A model generated the notes under the pieces. It was not told the origin of the DNA and ran no database searches. It saw only the letters and a program-made list of their open reading frames with translations. 45,269 nt of DNA from Thermovibrio sp. (GTDB lineage: Bacteria; Aquificota; Aquificia; Desulfurobacteriales; Desulfurobacteriaceae). The stretch lies in the NCBI GenBank assembly GCA_015488335.1, contig WFNZ01000001.1, forward strand, positions 1-45,269, written 5' to 3'. Made by a program: the position numbers and the translations under genes. Positions 9,574 to 26,859 of this stretch are shown piece by piece (within the stretch, counting starts at the first letter, position 1; each line of letters starts with the position of its first letter).

Positions 9574-11617
9574 AGGAAGTTTTCAATAGGTTCAGGTTTC
9601 CCGAGGAAGTAGCCCTGCCCCAGGGCACTTCCCTTTCCTATTTTCTTGAGTGTTGAGAGGAGCTCCTCATCTTCAATAAATTCATAAATCACGTTTTTAC
9701 CGAGTTTATTTGCAAGGGAAGTTATCGTTTCTACAATAGCTTTGAACACCTTATCTTTTTTGCCTTTTTAACGAGGCTTCCGTCTATTTTTATGTATTTC
9801 AGGCTCTCGTACTCTACGAGCTGTGCAATCCTTTCAAAGTTGGAGTATCCCGTTCCAAAATCGTCAATGGCAATATGAAAGTTATGGGAAGTTAAAGAAG
9901 GAATGACTTTTCCTATATCAACATCTTCTGTTTCAATAACTTCAGCCACTGTTTCTATACCCTTTTTAAGGGCTACTTCTTTAACCTGGGTGAGTTTTTC
10001 AAGAACTTCGTGGTTATAACAGGAGGTTGGGTAGAGGTTGACAAAGATTTTGCACTTCTCTTTTTTGTCGCAGTTTTCAATGAACTGTTTGAGTTTGTGG
10101 AGAACTGCTCTATCAAAGAGAGATGTGAATTTTAACTTTTTAACAACCTTTAGAAATTTATATGGGGAGATCAGTTTTTCATTTGGCAGAACAATTCTTG
10201 AGAGAACTTCTATCCCCTCTCTCTCTTCAGATTTAAGGTTTATTATCGGCTGGCCGTAGAGTTTAAGGTAGTTTTCACTTTCGGGATCTTTTAATAATTT
10301 TACAGCGGCAATTACTTCCTGAAACTCGTTTATTGTCTCTGAAAGGTCTGATATCTCAACAACAGTTTTTGATGGGAAATTTTCTTTTACAGTTTCTTCT
10401 ATTGTATCTATAAAAATCGGGAAATCCTCTCGGGCTATGGCTGAAAGCTTTACAGTATCTCCTGAAATAACTACCGCTTTAATGTATTTATTTAGCTGTT
10501 CTTCAGATATTGAGAGTTTCTGGCAGGTTATCTCTTCTGCTTTCTTAAGGAGTTTCTTAATGGAAGATTTAACCCAGTCTTTCTTTTCACTTTCTGTTAA
10601 GTAAATAACGTAACATCTATATATCTCCCTCTCTCTATCTTCGTGGATAAAAGCCGTTCCTATACCATAACTGCTTTCATTTATGAGTCTTATCAGATTT
10701 AACGAGAATATCTTAAAAACTCTTATTGCGAGTTTATCTATATCTGTTGGAATGAAAATTAGGCTGAATATCTTTTCCTCAAACAGAGGGTCAAGGAGGA
10801 ATTCGCTCAGAGATTTTTCTTTGCTGACTTCCCACTTATACTTGAGAAATATTGAGTAGAGGAGCAACAGTTTTGACTTTTCCGAAAGCCTTGCCCAGGT
10901 TCTGTATGCATACTTGTAGTTCCTGTTCCTGATGTATTTTGTTAAGTGGCAGACAAGGTTGTAGAGCTCCTCGTTCAGTTTTTGAAGTGCCAGGCTCACG
11001 TCCCTTGCGCTGTAGGATTTCAGGAGGAAATCGGCAGATGAGAAGTAGTGGTTTGCCTCAAAGCAGGAGACGTTTTTTATAAGAAACGCTATCAGTTCCT
11101 GAGCTGTCTGGCTTTTCTCCTCTCCCCTTATTAAACAGGCCTGTTCTAAAGCTTCAAGGAGTTTAATCTGGTCAGAGGCTATTTCGGGAATGTAGGCTAA
11201 GAACTTCTCCCAGGTTTTCCTCAACTCTTTAAGGTCTTCCGTTAGATATATCTCGTAGCTGAGCTCTGTAAGTTCGTGAAACAGTGATTCAATCTTCTGA
11301 GGCGAGGCGGGAATTTTTCCCTTTTCCGACAGGTTCAGAAGCTGTCTTTTTATAAACTCCATTGAGTCTATGAAGTCTTCCTGTGGTAGTCCTATTTTGT
11401 GGTGCAGAAGGATTACGCTTTCGTAGTTTTTCAGGGAATTTTCCTTATCAAGGAGGAGGTTCGCCATTAGAGAAGACTGCTTCTGAACGAGCCCTTTGAA
11501 CATGTGTGGAGACGGAAAAAATGCGGAGAGGTGTGGAAGGTTTAACAGATTGTGGTAAAAGAGGTTAAATACCCTGTTGAGTATCCCCTGCAGTTTTTTT
11601 GGATCGGTTTTCTCCAC
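9570..11617 (-). CDS. Globin-sensor-like/EAL-domain protein, interrupted by a -1 frameshift
   Basis: Starts at GTG 11617. In frame zero it stops after about 628 residues, ending RCSKLL. A -1 shift at 9755-9761 instead gives a 682-residue product ending at 9570. Residues 1-150 resemble a globin-coupled sensor helix bundle (FNLFYHNLLNLPHLSAFFPS, then LHHKIGLPQEDF, whose His could be the heme ligand). The middle shows no GGDEF motif. The C-terminal part is an EAL phosphodiesterase domain: EVLSR in place of EALxR, IFVNLYP, AEVIET, IDDFGTGYSNF, KYIKIDGSLV. After the shift come YEFIEDEELL and LGQGYFLGKP, the equivalents of AEGVE and QGY. These pieces are needed for a complete fold. Either a programmed frameshift, a pseudogene or a homopolymer sequencing error explains it. 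Confidence 0.8.
9755..9761 (-). other. A_AAA_AAG slippery heptamer in the EAL gene
   Basis: Read on the minus strand in frame zero the codons are GCA AAA AAG ATA AGG. The heptamer A AAA AAG is the classic -1 slippery site, as in E. coli dnaX. After a one-base slip the next codon is GAT, giving D-K-V-F-K-A-I-V-E-T, the expected EAL continuation. No strong downstream hairpin was found by eye, so stimulation of shifting is not shown. Confidence 0.6.
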
Positions 11618-11672
11618 AAACTTCCCCTACCCGGTTTTCCTTCTACTATTCTAAAAAATTTTTTAATTTAGT

Positions 11673-11698
11673 ATAAGGGGGAGGAAAGGCCCCCTTAT
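11673..11698 (-). terminator. Terminator hairpin overlapping the valS stop
   Basis: Nine base pairs, ATAAGGGGG with CCCCCTTAT, around an eight-base loop (AGGAAAGG on the plus strand). The stop codon of valS lies in the stem. On the minus strand the hairpin is followed by an AT-rich stretch with TTTTTT about 12 bases on, so it is an imperfect intrinsic terminator between valS and the EAL gene. Confidence 0.55.
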
Positions 11699-14328
11699 TT
11701 CATGTTCTTCAGCTGACGGAGTGTTCCTTCAAGTTTCTTCACAACTTCAGACAGTTCTCTCAGCTCCTCTTTGTTCTTCTCAACAACCTCTTTTGGAGCT
11801 CTCTCTAAGAAATTCCTGTTTGAGAGTTTCTTCTCAAGCTTTGCAACCTCTTTCTGGAGCTTCTCTAACTTCTTCTTAATCCTTTCAATCTCTTTCTCAA
11901 CGTCTATCAGCTCTCCAACCTTAACGTAGACTTCAACTCCCGGAAGGAAGAAGGAGACGCTTCCCGGCGGTGGCTCATCTACTTTGTGGAGCTCCCCTAC
12001 CCTTGCCATCTGTTTTATGGATGGAGCCATCTTCCCAATAACTTCTAATAGTTTGTTGTTGTTCGTTCTTACTCCAACCTCAACCTCTGTAGAAGGCGGT
12101 ATGTTCAGCTCTGCCTTAACATTCCTTGTTCCTCTTATTATCTCTTTAACCGTTTCAACAAGCTCCGCCGTTTCCGGGAACCTGCAGCAGGTATCGCTGG
12201 GCCATGGTGCTATAACGATAGATTCTGCATCTCTGTTGGGAAGTTTCTGGTAAATCTCCTCTGTAATGAAGGGCATTATGGGGTGAAGGAGCTTCATCGC
12301 GTCCCTTAAAACCCTTAAAAGAGTATGGGCTGCAGCTCTTTTCTCCTTATCACTTCCCCTGTAGAGCCTCTGTTTTGTGAACTCAACGTACCAGTCTGCA
12401 AGCTCGTTCCAGATAAACTGGTATATGGCCTTTGCTGCGTCGTTGAACCTGTAGGCAAAGAGCTCCCTGTCAACGGCCTCTACAGTTTCAGAGAGCTTTG
12501 TGAGGATCCACTCATCTTCAGGGGCATAATCTATAGCTCCGTCCTCTTTAATTCCTTCCGTTGCAGTTAGAACAAACCTTGCAACGTTCCACACCTTATT
12601 TGCAAAGTGCCTGTATCCCTCAATTATTTTTTCCGAGAGCCTTATGTCCCTACCTTGAGCTGCAAGGGCTGTTAGGGTAAACCTTAACGTGTCTGCTCCA
12701 TACTTTTCAACCATTTCTAACGGGTCAATAACGTTCCCCTTTGTCTTGCTCATCTTCTGGCCCTTCTCGTCCCTCACGAGGGCGTGGACGTAAACGTCTG
12801 CAAAAGGCCTCTTACCTGTGAAGTGGTAGCCCATCATCATCATACGGGCAACCCAGAAGAAGATGATGTCAAACCCTGTGACCAGAAGGTCTGTCGGGTA
12901 GAATGCCTTAAGGTCATCTGTTTCCTCCGGCCAGCCGAAAACTCCAAAGGGCCAGAGGGACGAGCTGAACCAGGTGTCAAGAACGTCCTCATCCTGCTTC
13001 AAGTTTTTACTTCCGCAGGCTTCACACTTTTCAGGCTCTTCCTCTGAAACGTTTATGTGGCCGCAGTCTAAACAGTACCAGGCAGGAATTCTGTGTCCCC
13101 ACCAGATCTGCCTTGAGATGCACCAGTCCTTTATGTTGAACATCCAGTCAAAGAAGGTGTTTTCCCACTGTTTTGGAATGAACTTGACCTCTCCAGTTTT
13201 AACTGCCTCTATGGGCTTTTCAGCTAAAGGTTTCGTCTTCACGAACCACTGGTCTGAAAGGTAGGGTTCAACAACTGTTTTACACCTGTAGCAGTGGCCT
13301 ACTGCGTGGTTGTGGGGTTCTTCTTTCTCAAGAAGCTCCTCCTCCTTTAATAGGGCAACTATGGCTTCCCTCGCCTCTAACCTGTCCATTCCCTTAAACG
13401 GAGGAACAGTTATCCTTCCCCAGTCGTCCATTACCTGAATGGCCTCAAGGCCGTGCCTCTGGCCTACCTCAAAGTCGTTGAAGTCGTGGGCCGGAGTTAT
13501 CTTGACGGCTCCCGTTCCAAACTCAGGGTCAACGTACTCGTCTGCAATTATGGGAATCTCCCTTCCAACTATTGGAAGCCTAACCTTTTTACCGATGAGG
13601 TGTTTATACCTCTCATCGTTCGGGTTAACTGCAACTGCAACGTCTCCTAAAAGGGTTTCAGGCCTTGTTGTGGCTACAACTATGTAACCTTCCCCATCAA
13701 CCAGAGGGTACCTTATGTACCAGAGTTTTCCCTGTTCTTCTTCGTGCTCAACCTCAAGGTCTGAAAGTGCTGTGTGGCACCTTGGACACCAGTTTATGAG
13801 CCTTTTTCCTCTATAGATTAATCCTTCTCTGTAAAGGGTTACGAAGGCTCTCCTAACGGCCTTTGAGAAACCCTCGTCCATTGTGAACCTTTCCCTGTCC
13901 CAGTCGCAGGACGTTCCCAGTTTCTTGAGCTGGTTGATAATTCTGCTTCCGTACTGCTCTTTCCACTCCCAGACTCTCTTTAAGAACTCTTTCCTTCCAA
14001 CGTCGTGCCTTGTCAGTCCCTCTTTTGCCAGCTCCCTCTCTACAACCCACTGGGTTGCAATTCCTGCGTGGTCTGTTCCCGGAACCCAGCAGACCTCGTA
14101 ACCTTTCATCCTCTTCCAGCGACAGATAACGTCCTGAAGTGTTGAGTTGAGGGCGTGGCCTACGTGGAGAACGCCTGTTACGTTTGGCGGTGGAAGAACC
14201 ACGCTAAACTTCTTTTTCTCTCCAGATAGGACTTTTTTCTTGTCGGCGTGGAAGTATTTTTTCTCTAACCACTTCCTATACCACTTATCCTCAAAGAGCT
14301 GGGGGTTGTATGTCGGTTCCATTTCCAT
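11695..14328 (-). CDS. valS: Valyl-tRNA synthetase
   Basis: 877 residues, normal length. Class I HIGH motif as HVGHA (residues 55-59) after PPPNVTG, and KMSKTKGN near residue 530. Two zinc knuckles are visible, CPRCHTALSD in the first part of the editing region and the pair CLDCG..CEACG before the catalytic core resumes. The CP1 editing domain carries TTRPETLLGD. The last 65 residues are the Val-specific tRNA-binding coiled coil (VEKEIERIKKKLEKLQKEVA and beyond). It charges tRNA-Val and proofreads Thr. The gene diverges from tRNA-Arg at 14417 and ends in its own terminator hairpin. Confidence 0.98.
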   Translation of the reverse strand: MEMEPTYNPQLFEDKWYRKWLEKKYFHADKKKVLSGEKKKFSVVLPPPNVTGVLHVGHALNSTLQDVICRWKRMKGYEVCWVPGTDHAGIATQWVVERELAKEGLTRHDVGRKEFLKRVWEWKEQYGSRIINQLKKLGTSCDWDRERFTMDEGFSKAVRRAFVTLYREGLIYRGKRLINWCPRCHTALSDLEVEHEEEQGKLWYIRYPLVDGEGYIVVATTRPETLLGDVAVAVNPNDERYKHLIGKKVRLPIVGREIPIIADEYVDPEFGTGAVKITPAHDFNDFEVGQRHGLEAIQVMDDWGRITVPPFKGMDRLEAREAIVALLKEEELLEKEEPHNHAVGHCYRCKTVVEPYLSDQWFVKTKPLAEKPIEAVKTGEVKFIPKQWENTFFDWMFNIKDWCISRQIWWGHRIPAWYCLDCGHINVSEEEPEKCEACGSKNLKQDEDVLDTWFSSSLWPFGVFGWPEETDDLKAFYPTDLLVTGFDIIFFWVARMMMMGYHFTGKRPFADVYVHALVRDEKGQKMSKTKGNVIDPLEMVEKYGADTLRFTLTALAAQGRDIRLSEKIIEGYRHFANKVWNVARFVLTATEGIKEDGAIDYAPEDEWILTKLSETVEAVDRELFAYRFNDAAKAIYQFIWNELADWYVEFTKQRLYRGSDKEKRAAAHTLLRVLRDAMKLLHPIMPFITEEIYQKLPNRDAESIVIAPWPSDTCCRFPETAELVETVKEIIRGTRNVKAELNIPPSTEVEVGVRTNNNKLLEVIGKMAPSIKQMARVGELHKVDEPPPGSVSFFLPGVEVYVKVGELIDVEKEIERIKKKLEKLQKEVAKLEKKLSNRNFLERAPKEVVEKNKEELRELSEVVKKLEGTLRQLKNMK

Positions 14329-14375
14329 TTTTCCTCCGGCTTTTCAGCGGTTTGGGAAATTTTACTTTGTATCTG

Positions 14376-14403
14376 TTGAAAACTTAAACGGCGGGGATAA
14401 ATT
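14376..14403 (+). promoter_or_regulatory. Sigma-70-type promoter for tRNA-Arg and the tadA-recA run
   Basis: TTGAAA at 14376-14381, a 16-base spacer, then TAAATT at 14398-14403. The expected start is near 14410, about seven bases before the mature tRNA 5' end. No other good promoter was seen before recA, so this may drive tRNA-Arg, tadA, tRNA-Ser and recA together. Confidence 0.6.
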
Positions 14404-14416
14404 TATACCCGGCTGG

Positions 14417-14493
14417 GCGCCCGTAGCTCAACTGGATAGAGCGTGGGACTACGGATCCCAAGGTTGCAGGTTCGACTCCTGCCGGGCGCGCCA
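14417..14493 (+). tRNA. tRNA-Arg (anticodon ACG)
   Basis: Acceptor stem GCGCCCG pairs with CGGGCGC, the discriminator is G and CCA is encoded. The D arm is GCTC..GAGC, the anticodon stem TGGGA/TCCCA encloses CTACGGA with anticodon ACG, and the T arm is GCAGG TTCGACT CCTGC. A34 of this tRNA is the standard target of TadA, converted to inosine so that one tRNA reads CGU, CGC and CGA. The tadA gene starts 24 bases after the CCA end. Confidence 0.97.
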
Positions 14494-20439: not shown

Positions 20440-23400
20440 ATGGGAAGGAAGTGGAAGAGGAGTAGCCTTTCCCTGACGACAGGCTTTATAATGTCTGCGC
20501 TTCTATCGTCTCAGGGTCTGGCACAACACCCGTCTGTAAAGCTTATTGACATCTACGGAAACGTTGAGAAAAACGTTATTGACAAGCCAGACAATTTCAA
20601 AAACAAGTTTGATACGACCACAACTCCAGATACTCTTACTGTAAAAGACAAAAACGGCAACGATGTAACCCTTTACAAAGGAACTCCTATAAGCTTTGAA
20701 AAGTCCTGTGGCCAGTGTCACGAGAACATCATTACAGACATCAGAGCTTCCCACCACGGAGCTGTTGGCCTTCACGACATGGGCTGGATGGACAACAGAG
20801 AGACCTACGGAGACGATACGGGAGCCAAGGACTTCGTTACAAACGTAGTTCTCAAAATGCGCTACTTCAGATCAAAATCCCACTACGGGGGCTGGTGACC
20901 ACCTTCTTACCGCCAGTTGGCGGCCAAAAAACCACTTCAAGACCCTGCAGTTCCAAACGGAGCAGTTGACGGAATCAACCCAGCAGATCCTTCTGCCTAC
21001 AAAGGTTTTAACTTTGACATGGGAACTCCAACCCACAACATCACCTGTAACTCCTGCCACGCAGGCGGTGGTTCGGCCGAATTCGGAAGGGAAAACAAGC
21101 CCCTTGATGAAGTTCTGAAAGATAGATTAAAAAGTGACTTTGATAAGCTTAAGACAAAAGATTGGTTCGTTCGTGATGATCAGATTCTTGCCGAAATAAA
21201 CTCTTTTATTCCTTTTGATGGAGACCTGTTTGGATATTCAGACTACGAAGTTGGTGCAGGTTACATAGGGAAGCCGGGGCTTTTCAACTTTGCCCGTTCA
21301 GGTGTTAACGATACAGACTGTTTCATGTGCCACTCAAAGGCTGATGCTGATTCAAAGATAAAAACGGAGATTAACGGATACGTTCAGCAGCCCATAATGC
21401 CCTCAAACCCAAGGGTTATGGTCTTTAAAGGTATCTCCGATGATGGAGAGACAATTGTTCTGTCCCTTGGAATTCCGCCGAAAGTTGGAGAGAAGATAGA
21501 AGTAGGGAAGGATCAGAACGGCAATCCAATTTATAAAACGGTTGCGAAAGTTGACTCTGCTTACTACAACTCCGTTCCCCTTTCTGTTCTTAAAGCTCTT
21601 TATCATCTCTCAGACGACCAGTTGAACGCTATTAGGAGCAACGATGGTTCCTGGTCAAAGTTCTTCATTTATCCCAACAACGCCAACGGTGCAACAAGAG
21701 AAGTTGCAAGGGTAGCCTACTTTGAACACCCTTCTTCTACAGCAGATAAAGACGGCGGAGATGTTTACGTAAACGGTGGTGCTGCAACGTTCCACGACGA
21801 TAACGGGAATGTCGTATACAGAACGTTTGCAGGTTTCTTCTTCAAATACATCTCAACAGCCGACCTTATGGGCGTTGATACAGATCACGATGGCGTTCCT
21901 CTTGCCTATGTCCGCTTTGTTAAGGAAGACGGCGTCTGGAAACCGGAAGTTTACTACGATAAGGACGAGTTCAACTCTAAGGGAGAAGTTGACCTTCCTG
22001 TTCTTGAAAACAGGGTTGGTGATAAGGATACTCCGTCAACGAAGGTTCCTCCTGAGAATTACACCTACTCCGTTCCTAAAAGGGATGAGAAGGGTGATTT
22101 GATCATTTCGGAGAAGAACGGAGTCCATCAACCAGAGATGACCTCTGGTTCAGATAACAGGAACTGGGGTTATGTCTGTTCTTACTGCCATATGGCAATT
22201 CCCTATAAGGACGGAAAACTTTCAGATGGAAGTGATACATACGCCTGGGTTACAAGGAAAGGAACTTTAGGGCTTGGTGCTGAGATAGTTAAGAGAGGAG
22301 ATGTCTTTTCCTACGATATCCACAGGGGAAGTGATAACGGAGAAAACCTTGAACCGACAGACCTTCAGCAAACTCTTCAGTCTCAAGGGTTTGATGCAGC
22401 TTACAGGAAGATGATTACAGCAAAGTCTGTTCTCTCTATAAACGATGACATTCCAATTGGTTATGACGTTCACTTTGACAGTAAAGATGGTGCCGGTTTA
22501 ACCTGTCTCTCCTGCCACGGAGAGGGAACGCTATCTCCTGAAGAGAAGCAGTATCACCCGATTCACCACGACTTCCTGAAAGGAAACGACTGGGGTGGCC
22601 ACTGGGATCAATCATTAGACTACAACCCGTCTCTTAAGACCTGTTTAGACTGTCACTTTGGCGGCTCAAGGCAGTTGGCTGCACAGGTTCACAGGAGTGC
22701 TTTTGGTCCCGGAGGAAATGCAGCTATCCATATGGATAAGGTTGCTTGTGAAGTCTGCCACATTCCGTTCAAGACTCACTGGACGTTCAGGACCTTCTAC
22801 GATGCTGTTGGCTACTCTTACAACTTTGACAACAGGATACTCAACTACGATCTAAACAATGGAACTGTTCAAAAACTTCCAGAGAGTATGTTTACTCCAG
22901 GATTCGGACCGTTTATGCCGATTGGAGGGTATGGAGCTCCCCAGCCCTTCTGCATAGTCAGAACCGACAGCGGTAAGGATACAGTTGTTCCAATCTACCA
23001 GGCAGACTTTGACCCAAGACAGGCTGCCTTAAGACTTGAGAATAAGAACTTTGGAATCTGGGATGTTCCAGACATCTCCTTCCCATGGGCCTGGGCACCG
23101 GTTATTATCAACAACGGCTTCAGACCAGATACTCCCGGTGGTCAGAAGTTCATGTACAGGCTTGCGGATCCGCTTACTCTTGTAACCTGGTATGACAAGT
23201 CAACAGGGAAAGTTCTCTACACCCGTGAAATCGCTGCCGCTTTAGATGGAGCAGTTAAGTCTAACTATGCCGGAAAGAACGTTCCTGCTTACTACATCCA
23301 TAACGGAAAGGTTTGTGTTAAGACTATAAAAGGAGACTGGATCTGTGACGACAACGGAGATCTCCTGCCGGAGATAGATACGAATGCTGAATATGAGGCA

Positions 23401-25050
23401 ATGAGAAATGCCCTCATAGATGTCCTTAAGAAAGAGGGAGTTCACAACCCTGATCCTGTCTTCTACATCTGGACGGCTCCGTTCAGCATAGACCACGGCG
23501 TTCTTCCCAAAGAGTACGCCCTTGGTGCAGGTGCAACAGTTAACGGTGAAACGCTCAACTGTGAAGTTTGCCACGATGCTAAGAACGGAAGACTTCCTGA
23601 AGCTAACATGTCAGACATTCAGAGCAGTAGTGCTCTGAGCTCCTTGATTAAGAAGGATCCCAATGGTCATATCAAGTTCTTTGGCCTCGGTAGGAAAATT
23701 GTTACTGTTCCGTCTGCAATTCCGCCTGAGGCTTATAAGAACGCTGTAAGGGTATTCTTCAACTCTCCTGAAGATGAGAACGGCAACCCGGTTTACGGAA
23801 CTATGACAATCAAGGTTGCCGGTCAGGAGAAAGACATCAAGGTAATGTATACAACTGCAGGAGATATCCTTGTTAACGCCCTTACCAACGGAATAGATAT
23901 CAACAGACACCTTGTTCCGATTCCCGTTGAGAGCTCCGGAATTGAAGGTATCGCATTTGCCCTTCCCGGTAGAGAGTCAACCTGGAAGATGAAGATTGAA
24001 GGAGTTGAAACGGAAGTTGAAACAGAAGCTCTTAAGGATGATGAAGTTCCAAGAAGAGCTCTTGTTTACAGGCTGAAGAACGAAATGACGGAGCTCCTTG
24101 GATTTGAACACCTTGCAGATGAGATTATGTCTGCAGGTGGGTCAGACCTCGTTCCTGTCTTTACTCCTGTAATTCCATCTGAGTACATAACTAAGATGGA
24201 CTTCAACCTCTCTGACCTGAAAGTTGCTGATCCTGCAGACCTTTACATCAACTATGCGAGAATTCACAAAGTCAGGGTATCTAAGGGAAGTGACGTTCAC
24301 TATGAGCTTGATAAAGAGAACTTCAAGCCTGCATCAATTTCTGTTAAGGATGCGATCCTGAAAGGTTGGGCTTCCTACGATCCTGCAGAGGGAGTTTTAA
24401 CGGTTAATACTGCTGCTATGGCCGAGGAAGTCCCAGGAGAGGGAGAGCTTGTATTCTCCGTTATGAGAAAGACAGGAACAGAGGTTACAGTTCCATCTGA
24501 AATAGATATTGTTGAAAAATCCTCAAATGAGGTTAAGGTGAATGTTGTTGTTTCAGGAGAGAAGAAACCGGTAACTGTTACAACCGATGCTGAAATTTCT
24601 GACGTTCTTGAACCGCCTCAGCTTTTAAGGTTTGCTTCAGAACACAATCTCAAGAAGGTTGTTTTAGGAGTGGAGCTCCTCAGCGATAAGGAGTCTTTCA
24701 GCGTAGAATTTGACGTTGACGGCCTTGTAGATCCAAATAAGGCCGTTGCCTATGTAACTGTTAACGGTAAGACTGAAAGCTGTAAGCCGCAGTTAGAAAG
24801 TGGCGTTCTTAAAGTTGACTACCCATGCTCTGGAACCAGGGCGGTTACGAGAGCTGAAACCCCTGTAACGGTTGTTTTAGGAGAATCTGAATCTACACCT
24901 ACGGCTACCAGCAGCACAGTTTCCGGAGGCGGTGGCGGTGGAGGCTGTTCTGTAGCTCCTTCTGCACCTGCTGGAAACGGCCTTCTGAACTTAGGAGTTC
25001 TCCTCTCTGGCCTCTTAGGACTCTTTGGCTTTAGAAGGAAGAAGCACTAA
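20440..25050 (+). CDS. Exported octaheme c-type cytochrome with in-frame UGA (candidate selenoprotein)
   Basis: A single frame of 1537 codons broken only by TGA at codon 153 (20896-20898). Residues 1-28 are a Sec signal peptide (SLTTGFIMSALLSSQGLAQ). Heme motifs CxxCH: 90-94 before the TGA; then 203-207, 294-298, 580-584, 689-693, 735-739, 770-774 and 1041-1045. The local sequence is SKSHYGGW-U-PPSYRQL. The frame after the TGA has no ribosome site or signal peptide, so independent expression could not yield a matured cytochrome. Beta-rich domains fill residues 1050-1480. The tail is Gly-rich, then GGGCSVAPSAP, a hydrophobic helix and FRRKKH, like GlyGly/Cys-type CTERM sorting signals. It has its own promoter-like leader and a strong terminator. 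Readthrough as selenocysteine is favoured; a disabled gene is the alternative. Likely a cell-surface or periplasmic redox protein; substrate unknown. Confidence 0.85.
20893..20934 (+). promoter_or_regulatory. SECIS-like hairpin immediately after the in-frame UGA
   Basis: CCGCC (20910-20914), loop AGTT, GGCGG (20919-20923): a five-pair G-C stem with G in the first two loop positions and 16 bases from UGA to the loop, at the near edge of the known range for bacterial SECIS elements. A lower stem can form between TGGT (20893-20896, including the U of UGA) and ACCA (20931-20934), with A-U pairs between. Found by eye; not folded. Confidence 0.6.
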
Positions 25051-25134: not shown

Positions 25135-26436
25135 ATGAAAAGAGCTCTCCTCTTAACATTTTTCTTCCTCCTCTCAGCCTGCGGCACGCAGAGTTCGGTT
25201 TCTGAGAAGACAGAAGTTTCTAAAGGAAAGACTCTTCAACCTGTGAGAGAGAAAGTCTGTTCTCCCGATACAGTTCTTGCAGAAGGGAAGGGGCTAAGAA
25301 TAACACTTTCAGATTACAAATACGTGGAAAAGCTGTTGAGTAATAAGTCAAAGGCCTTTTTCTCTGCCCACCCTGAGGAGCTCCTCAGGAGAATGGTAAA
25401 CCGGAGATTGGTAATTAAATACGTTGAAGACTCTGGCCTTGCAGATAAGTACGGCTTAAATAAGGAGATAGAAGCTTTCAAAAAGGACTACCTTTCCCGC
25501 CTTTACGTTTCAAGAGAGGCGGCAAAGCGCTTAAAACCTGTTACAGACGAAGAGATTGTAAAACGATTTAAAGAGCTCTTCCCTAAGAAAGATCCTTCTA
25601 AAATGAGCAAGGGAGATAAGGAGTTTATAAGGAATGAGCTGAGGGTCAAGCACTACGATGAGGCCGTTGCGTCTATTTACGGTGAAGTTGAGAAAAAGCT
25701 GAAGTTTTCTAAAAAAGGCAATCTTTTAACTGTTAGCTGCTGCGGTATAGAGCTCTCCCACAAAATTAAAAAGGGAGAGGATGAAAAGTTTGTGAAGAAC
25801 CGGTTAAAAGAGGATTTCTTCAAGGAGTATTTCTACAGGAAGGCTCTTAAGATAGGCCTTGATAAGAATCCTCAGTTCCGGAGAATGTTGACAGAGTATT
25901 TTGCGACTAAAGCAATAGACGTTTTCAGGAAAGAGCTTGAGAAGGGGATAACTGTTTCTCCTGAAGAGGTTAAAGCCTTTTACCAGCAGAACAGGGATAA
26001 GTTCTTCATGCCCGACAGGGTAAAGGCCGTTATTATCTTAGTTGACAGCAAGAAAAAGGCGGAAGAAGTTAAGAAGCTCCTTGAGAGCGGTAAACCCTGG
26101 CAGGAAGTTGCCAGACGTTTTGCAAACTTTAGGGCGCAGCCGAGGTTCTACTTTAAGGATACGAAAGACCCTGTTGGAGCTCTCCTCTTTGCAGAGGGGA
26201 AGCCCAAAAAGGGTAAAGTCGTTATAGCCCAGTTTGGAGACAAAACCTTTGCAACCATTTATGTTCTTGACTACGTTCCCGGCGGAGTTCTTTCCTATGA
26301 AAGGGTTAAGAAGTATGCCGGGATTGTTTTAAAGAGGGAAAAGCTGAAAGAGGCAGAGGAGAAGAAACTGAAGGAGCTCTGGAAGAAGTATGACGTTAAG
26401 CTTGAGAACTTAGACTGTATTAAGGGGAGCTCTTAG
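25135..26436 (+). CDS. Lipoprotein peptidyl-prolyl isomerase (SurA/PpiC-like)
   Basis: 433 residues. Lipobox LSAC with C16 as the lipidation site after a hydrophobic signal. Residues 70-160 are a SurA-type N-terminal chaperone helix region (EELLRRMVNRRLVIKYVEDSG and on). A long charged helix leads to a parvulin-like domain from about 285 (VSPEEVKAFYQQNRDKFFMP, then VKAVIILVDSKKKAEEVKKL and PWQEVARRFAN). The usual parvulin 'GGDLG' stretch is not clear, so isomerase activity may be weak. The Cys pair SCCGIEL is unusual. As a periplasmic or outer-membrane chaperone it could help fold the large cytochrome upstream. It lies after the cytochrome terminator with GGAGG before ATG; a TATACT at 25104 could be its -10. 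Confidence 0.8.
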   Translation: MKRALLLTFFFLLSACGTQSSVSEKTEVSKGKTLQPVREKVCSPDTVLAEGKGLRITLSDYKYVEKLLSNKSKAFFSAHPEELLRRMVNRRLVIKYVEDSGLADKYGLNKEIEAFKKDYLSRLYVSREAAKRLKPVTDEEIVKRFKELFPKKDPSKMSKGDKEFIRNELRVKHYDEAVASIYGEVEKKLKFSKKGNLLTVSCCGIELSHKIKKGEDEKFVKNRLKEDFFKEYFYRKALKIGLDKNPQFRRMLTEYFATKAIDVFRKELEKGITVSPEEVKAFYQQNRDKFFMPDRVKAVIILVDSKKKAEEVKKLLESGKPWQEVARRFANFRAQPRFYFKDTKDPVGALLFAEGKPKKGKVVIAQFGDKTFATIYVLDYVPGGVLSYERVKKYAGIVLKREKLKEAEEKKLKELWKKYDVKLENLDCIKGSS

Positions 26437-26445: not shown

Positions 26446-26859
26446 CTACCGGTTTATTCCACCTTTTAAAACCTTCAGCACTTTTTCCAGAAGCTCAATG
26501 TAGTTCCCTACCCGGGAGAATATCTCGTTTGCAACTTCTTCTCTGTACGTGTGAGATGTTAAGTTCCTGTCGTTAACCATTTCTAAGAGTTTCATGGCCT
26601 CATCTTCGTTTAGGTAGCCGGCCGAGAAGAGCTCCCTTATGCACCCTTTAGGTGAACGGCACTCAATTCCTTCTACTTCAATAAGAAAAGCTTTAACTCC
26701 CTTCCAGCAGGTTTCAACTGTAAACTCAAACCTCTGAAGAGTTGAATCCCTGAAAAAGGGGAAGTAGCGGTTTCCTCTGTTATTTACGGCTTCTCTGTAT
26801 GCCTCTTTCAGTCTACTTAGTGCCTTTTCAAAGCTTGCAAGCCTTTCTTTTAAAGCCAT
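26446..26859 (-). CDS. HEPN-domain protein (HI0074/HepT-like), partner of MNT
   Basis: 137 residues, all-helical. The segment LQRFEFTVETCWKGVKAFL is the characteristic opening of nucleotidyltransferase substrate-binding HI0074 proteins, and DRNLTSHTY holds the HEPN RNase motif R-x4-H as R98 to H103 with N99. In MNT/HEPN toxin-antitoxin pairs HEPN is an RNase toxin that the MNT partner inactivates, in studied cases by AMP transfer to a Tyr near the motif; Y105 here is in the right place (general family knowledge, not shown for this subgroup). The ATG overlaps the MNT stop by ten bases. The pair ends the rimP-nusA run. Confidence 0.85.
   Translation of the reverse strand: MALKERLASFEKALSRLKEAYREAVNNRGNRYFPFFRDSTLQRFEFTVETCWKGVKAFLIEVEGIECRSPKGCIRELFSAGYLNEDEAMKLLEMVNDRNLTSHTYREEVANEIFSRVGNYIELLEKVLKVLKGGINR

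Follow-up and report, generated by a model that had tools for sequence, protein, structure and literature searches.

A compact hairpin as the probable selenocysteine insertion element of an octaheme cytochrome c gene in Thermovibrio sp.

How might a large cytochrome c gene of Thermovibrio sp. be translated through an in-frame UGA? The gene lies in a 45,269-nucleotide stretch of DNA (contig WFNZ01000001.1), referred to here as the window. Its frame at 20440-25050 is open over 1536 codons when the UGA, the single odd codon inside, is read as selenocysteine (Sec). A short hairpin follows this codon, and our analysis leaves us highly confident that it is a bacterial selenocysteine insertion sequence (SECIS) element directing predicted Sec insertion at UGA 20896. 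The features concerned are as follows.

20440-25050, forward strand: octaheme c-type cytochrome gene (family 1, described below), 1536 aa, one UGA predicted to be read through; from the open frame with TGA as Sec.
20896-20898, forward strand: UGA, predicted selenocysteine 153, context SHYGGW-U-PPSYRQLAAK, between heme motifs 1 and 2.
20910-20923, forward strand: predicted SECIS hairpin, stem 20910-20914 with 20919-20923, loop AGUU 20915-20918; from folding and pair counts.

The original prediction for this DNA placed CCGCC-AGTT-GGCGG directly 3′ of the UGA, with the loop at 16 nt and a G at loop base 1 or 2, and direct reading bore this out. The TGA (20896-20898) is followed by 11 nt (20899-20909), CCGCC (20910-20914), AGTT (20915-20918) and GGCGG (20919-20923); the distance from the UGA to the loop is 16 nt, with G as the second loop base. 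Exactly this hairpin was folded by ViennaRNA, at -9.4 kcal/mol, and the family-2 gene tested gave the same value. The bacterial SECIS (bSECIS) model, as given in the available portion of a recent review (PMC13188914), sets a UGA-to-loop distance of 16-37 nt, a loop of 3-9 nt, an upper stem of 4-16 bp, a minimum free energy (MFE) of -7.5 kcal/mol or lower and a G at either of the first two loop positions. The window element lies within all of these limits (16 nt, 4-nt loop, 5 bp, -9.4, AGUU). Family 3 has only 4 bp, and two distant members, G305 and G309, have a spacing of 22 nt.

The decisive evidence comes from conservation. A protein profile of the residues around Sec (A2) was run against 136 genomes from the phylum and recovered 27 genes in 17 genomes, all from the window’s own family, Desulfurobacteriaceae. 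Family 1 comprises 14 orthologs and family 2 comprises 13 paralogs, with 38% identity between the two families in the Sec region of the window genome’s pair. Each has exactly one internal TGA, and the same UGA is found in 14/14 family-1 genes. A DNA pattern search allowing up to three mismatches revealed a third octaheme family (family 3) in nine genomes, with one base different, and a family-3 protein profile recovered the same nine genes with one TGA in each. Since family 3 was first found through the DNA pattern, its perfect match is partly due to selection; three mismatches were allowed and the members had one. The resulting set of 36 genes, all with the UGA, was restricted to carriers of the exact 15-mer listed below, a filter that all 27 profile-found genes passed. 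Loci L017-L025, apparently duplicates of genomes searched later, were left out of this count. Alignment A3 holds eight of the nine family-3 genes (L085, with a wrongly trimmed start, was excluded) and alignment A4 has 32 rows.

20908-20922, forward strand: 15-nt block TACCGCCAGTTGGCG, invariant in 36/36 genes.

The codons at +4 to +8 after the UGA (TAC CGC CAG TTG GCG) are identical in all 36 genes, while codons +1, +2, +3 and +9 vary. An invariant residue with degenerate codons occupies 52 columns, and of these only the five consecutive hairpin columns use a single codon in every gene. Three of these codons are rare in the three window genes counted (CGC, 9 of 156 Arg; TTG, 14 of 240 Leu; GCG, 14 of 198 Ala). 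The five-pair G-C stem first described holds for the fold in the window and fails as a general rule: nine of the 36 homologs have C.C in place of the fifth pair, and the invariant stem core consists of four pairs.

Two samples of relatives (391 and 386 genomes) were also searched, and three members with the UGA were recovered from outside the phylum (G305, G309 and G369). The original prediction had pointed to homologs that keep the UGA as a check, and they keep the hairpin as well, in all 36 Desulfurobacteriaceae genes and in the three outside members, where the UGA, loop and inner stem are retained and the outer pair is changed on both sides in two. The G369 hairpin is the same as that of the window. 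G305 has TTTCGCC-AGTT-GGCGAAA and G309 has GCGaGCC-AGTT-GGCcCGC, and in both a two-residue insertion moves the element 6 nt further, so that the spacing from UGA to loop is 22 instead of 16 nt. The profile match in G305 covers only the part 3′ of the UGA, which was seen by reading upstream, and G368 was left aside because it looks like an unrelated multiheme protein. Over all 39 genes, the loop AGTT and pairs 1-3 are present in 39/39 and pair 4 in 38/39; pair 5 is C-G in 28, U-A in one, G-C in one and C.C in nine. The inner stem and loop thus form the fixed part; the outer stem has changed on both strands with pairing kept in two lineages, and family 3 lacks it.

Loss of the element in homologs without the UGA had been suggested as a second check. 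A family-3 profile search found a fourth related octaheme family without the TGA (family 4), with six copies having a usable stretch. The residue aligned to Sec is Ser (TCA, AGT or TCT) in the context GMYNR(V/I/R)S-VPHMF(H/K)(L/I)AP, and the hairpin is gone in all six. TTG at the Leu position occurs in 0/6 of these paralogs versus 39/39 UGA genes; the paralogs have CTT, CTC, TTA, or Ile. One further homolog (L156, G179:C174) has Asn at the Sec position. GCCAGTTGGC was on neither strand of the fetched loci holding these six Ser copies and the Asn homolog. The check was therefore borne out for Ser and Asn homologs, while the Cys counterpart was not among the homologs recovered. One family-4 cytochrome copy (L131, G116:C19:12811-14499) has an in-frame TAG, reflecting either a broken gene or an assembly error.

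Could the nucleotide invariance reflect only a conserved peptide, WUPPSYRQLA, with the hairpin as a by-product? The peptide is strongly conserved across families, and Leu-Ala also occurs in most Ser paralogs. However, other invariant residues, for example the flanking Pro at codon +2, vary in codon, whereas the five hairpin codons do not. Further, G305 and G309 change Tyr and/or Arg as well as the spacing, yet they keep the loop and inner stem, and their outer stem is paired anew. We consider a peptide-only explanation very unlikely.

An even less probable explanation is that the UGA is an ordinary stop, a sequencing error or the mark of a pseudogene, with the frame restarting at TTG 20917 and the hairpin being due to chance or serving as a coupling structure. 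Gene calling with the standard bacterial code (table 11) does yield two open frames:

20440-20898, forward strand: fragment 5′ of the UGA, 152 aa; standard-code gene calling.
20917-25050, forward strand: fragment 3′ of the UGA, TTG start, 1377 aa; standard-code gene calling.

The second piece would be without signal peptide and heme 1, however, and the same UGA stands at the same place in 39/39 genes from at least four lineages, with both sides open and flanking residues conserved. Decoding of the UGA as another amino acid such as Trp has a negligible probability, with no supporting point found, selA, selB and tRNA-Sec in the genome, and Ser or Asn, never Trp, aligned in non-UGA homologs.

Several observations weigh against the SECIS assignment. 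Since the core stem is invariant in Desulfurobacteriaceae, there is no covariation in that family, and the pair changes on both sides rest on two distant genes only (G305 and G309). The conservation is partly at the protein level, because the Gln-Leu-Ala peptide is also conserved, with Leu-Ala in 5/6 Ser paralogs. The family-3 hairpin alone, with only 4 bp, reaches -5.7 kcal/mol and is weaker than the model’s -7.5. No Rfam family matched the hairpin region, where only chance matches were obtained. Lastly, the total fold energy of a 61-nt stretch was no better than that of shuffles (z -0.05, 91/200 as good). Folding of 20885-20945, another proposed check, thus gave the exact hairpin with its exposed loop G but an average total energy, and the argument that the stem is convincing on its own is not supported. 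Shorter stretches did better against shuffles (39 nt: z -1.69, 9/200 as good; 24 nt: z -2.58, 4/200 as good). When the region was recoded 5000 times with the peptide fixed and the codon usage of the three window genes, the 5-bp stem was kept at that place in three recodings and an equally good fold arose somewhere in 204. Fold energy by itself is weak evidence for hairpin function, and conservation is decisive. We accept the hairpin as a SECIS element because nucleotide-level conservation, including that at synonymous positions, settles what fold energy cannot.

A lower stem, TGGT/ACCA, had also been proposed to bracket the UGA, and this part of the prediction did not survive. At most three pairs can form, since a fourth would close a 1-nt loop, and only 67.6% of cells pair over the 36 homologs. 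In family 3, where CTC precedes the UGA, two of the three pairs are lost, one in all nine genes and the other in eight.

Of the Sec machinery, the genome of the window encodes selA (619 bits) and selB (444 bits) as well as a tRNA-Sec whose anticodon is TCA. However, selA is present in 22/22 Desulfurobacteriaceae genomes, including those without these cytochromes, and co-occurrence within the family is therefore uninformative. selD was not among the few neighbor genes scanned, and no genome search aimed at selD was made. The claim that the hairpin supports Sec insertion is sustained by its conservation with the UGA, its absence without the UGA and the Sec genes in the genome. Based on the sequence, we infer SelB binding, Sec insertion and a role for the Sec residue. 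The AGUU-capped stem in the mRNA, its loop 16 nt downstream of the UGA, would recruit SelB carrying Sec-tRNA(Sec); UGA 20896 would then be read as selenocysteine instead of stop, and translation would continue to give a 1536-residue octaheme cytochrome c. A SECIS element of this type is ordinary in principle and is unusual for its shortness and near-invariance. With 14 nt, an invariant core and two spacings across lineages, it is among the simplest to test, and the minimum that SelB requires could be examined with it. As a separate observation, one Sec cytochrome gene of family 2 immediately follows prfB and has cysS on its other side (L094:8862-9881 and 10041-14462; G000 contig C54), possibly by coincidence. 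prfB encodes release factor 2, the competitor for UGA.

The window protein has eight CxxCH motifs, at residues 90, 203, 294, 580, 689, 735, 770 and 1041. The two that flank Sec are:

20707-20721, forward strand: heme motif 1, CGQCH, residues 90-94; computed from residue number.
21046-21060, forward strand: heme motif 2, CNSCH, residues 203-207, the first after Sec; computed from residue number.

The heme motifs of families 1-3 align with one another, as do those of family 3, family 4 and the outside members, and Sec falls after heme 1 and before heme 2; the heme 1 motif of G305 is CGAQGCH. How these proteins relate to known cytochromes was addressed with profile models. The 2026 review cited above (PMC13188914) tabulates, in its available portion, ExtKL, the GSU2204 family and a GenBank-annotated Sec octaheme protein of TIGR04315 (WP_331457571.1). 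TIGR04315, the tetrathionate reductase family octaheme c-type cytochromes, likewise has eight CxxCH motifs, and a weak local match is seen around hemes 5-7. In contrast to the model’s 440 positions, complete proteins of families 1-3 have 804-1536 aa, and scores are far below the cut-off of 375 (window protein, 31.2 bits; four family-2/3 proteins, 25.2-49.5; a further set of proteins, 16.7-44.1). None of the 136 phylum genomes had a TIGR04315 match over cut-off. ExtKL (NF040886), a 49.5 kDa pentaheme Sec cytochrome of the Geobacter ext operon (PMC5877670, as far as its accessible text goes), is similar in being a multiheme c-type cytochrome predicted with one Sec; it has five hemes, whereas the families here have eight and no ext operon. 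NF040886 was not among the profile matches of the window or homolog proteins. Residues 622-782 of the window protein match MtrC/MtrF-like outer-membrane cytochromes (PF22113, 36.6 bits, cut-off 30), but the protein has eight hemes plus Sec, and no porin-cytochrome neighbors were present among the genes scanned. A cytochrome c7 domain match was also over cut-off.

Sec in an octaheme cytochrome is already on record, and the families described here score below that TIGR04315 model. Because a Sec member of TIGR04315 is already tabulated (PMC13188914, in the portion available), ours is best described as a new family of a known kind. The literature search gave no description of these Sec octaheme families, and in the text accessible only PMC13188914 and PMC5877670 were seen to deal with Sec in multiheme cytochromes. 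The protein falls in a selenoprotein family that is apparently undescribed and has octaheme tetrathionate reductase (OTR) as a distant relative. When the family-3 profile was compared with that of OTR-like proteins from genus g3, the match had a probability of 97% and covered hemes 1-7. Sec might replace an active-site Cys of OTR. In the comparison with the genus g3 proteins, the heme motifs aligned and Sec was not opposite the Cys of the NDYC motif. A shorter octaheme protein of the OTR-like type is encoded in three genomes of genus g3, which has no Sec cytochromes (L138-L140, G123-G125); the two copies that were read carry a Cys (NDYC) after heme 1 and before heme 2. One OTR-like copy (L139, G124:C6:28334-29689) has an in-frame TAA, from a broken gene or an assembly error.

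What might Sec do in such a protein? Judged from the predicted protein, Sec would most likely serve as a redox-active residue close to heme 2, in a multiheme oxidoreductase that is secreted and probably anchored at the surface. Anchoring is likely given the sorting-like C-terminal tails of families 1-4, in which, in Desulfurobacteriaceae, a Gly-rich CS motif is followed by a hydrophobic stretch and then by a basic end. A family-2 tail matched JDVT-CTERM (NF033191) below cut-off (21.2 versus 27 bits), and the window protein has a similar tail:

24922-25047, forward strand: C-terminal GGGGGGGCS, hydrophobic stretch and RRKKH, sorting-signal-like; from sequence.

In G305, the octaheme part is joined in one protein to a cytochrome b resembling formate dehydrogenase gamma (134.4 bits, cut-off 115.85), which suggests possible quinol coupling there. 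More tentatively, Sec may be a catalytic residue or heme-2 ligand in a new class of surface-anchored octaheme oxidoreductases, whose seleno-heme site and compact AGUU SECIS would come from one ancestor or have moved between phyla as a unit; we regard this broader proposal as possible but rather doubtful. It is hinted at by the constant position of Sec between hemes 1 and 2, by the loss of the heme-2 motif in the Asn homolog and by the cytochrome b fusion in G305. In that Asn homolog (L156, G179), GARHVGGGP stands in place of the heme-2 CxxCH, a hint that Sec and heme 2 work together. Two AlphaFold2 predictions were of low confidence, with mean predicted local distance difference test (pLDDT) scores of 51.3 and 39.2 and the Sec region below 50. 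PDB sequence searches gave no convincing relative of the heme part; the one good match was to the G305 cytochrome b fusion. Nothing was found in the plasmids, phages and viral contigs searched.

These genes add apparently undescribed selenoproteins, three paralogous families in a family of vent bacteria plus relatives in at least three other lineages, and tie selenium to large multiheme electron-transfer proteins. They also illustrate how table 11 gene calling splits such selenoprotein genes in two. The neighbor genes scanned are mostly housekeeping and give no functional clue. A peptidyl-prolyl isomerase-like gene (PF13145, Rotamase_2; window 25135-26436) lies on the same strand, 84 nt downstream of the cytochrome gene. 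At the same place in another genus is a 427-aa gene without an NCBIfam match (L106:9960-11243), with neighbors similar in size and order. Window positions 26446-26859 encode a HepT-like, HI0074-family nucleotidyltransferase substrate-binding subunit (TIGR01987, over cut-off).
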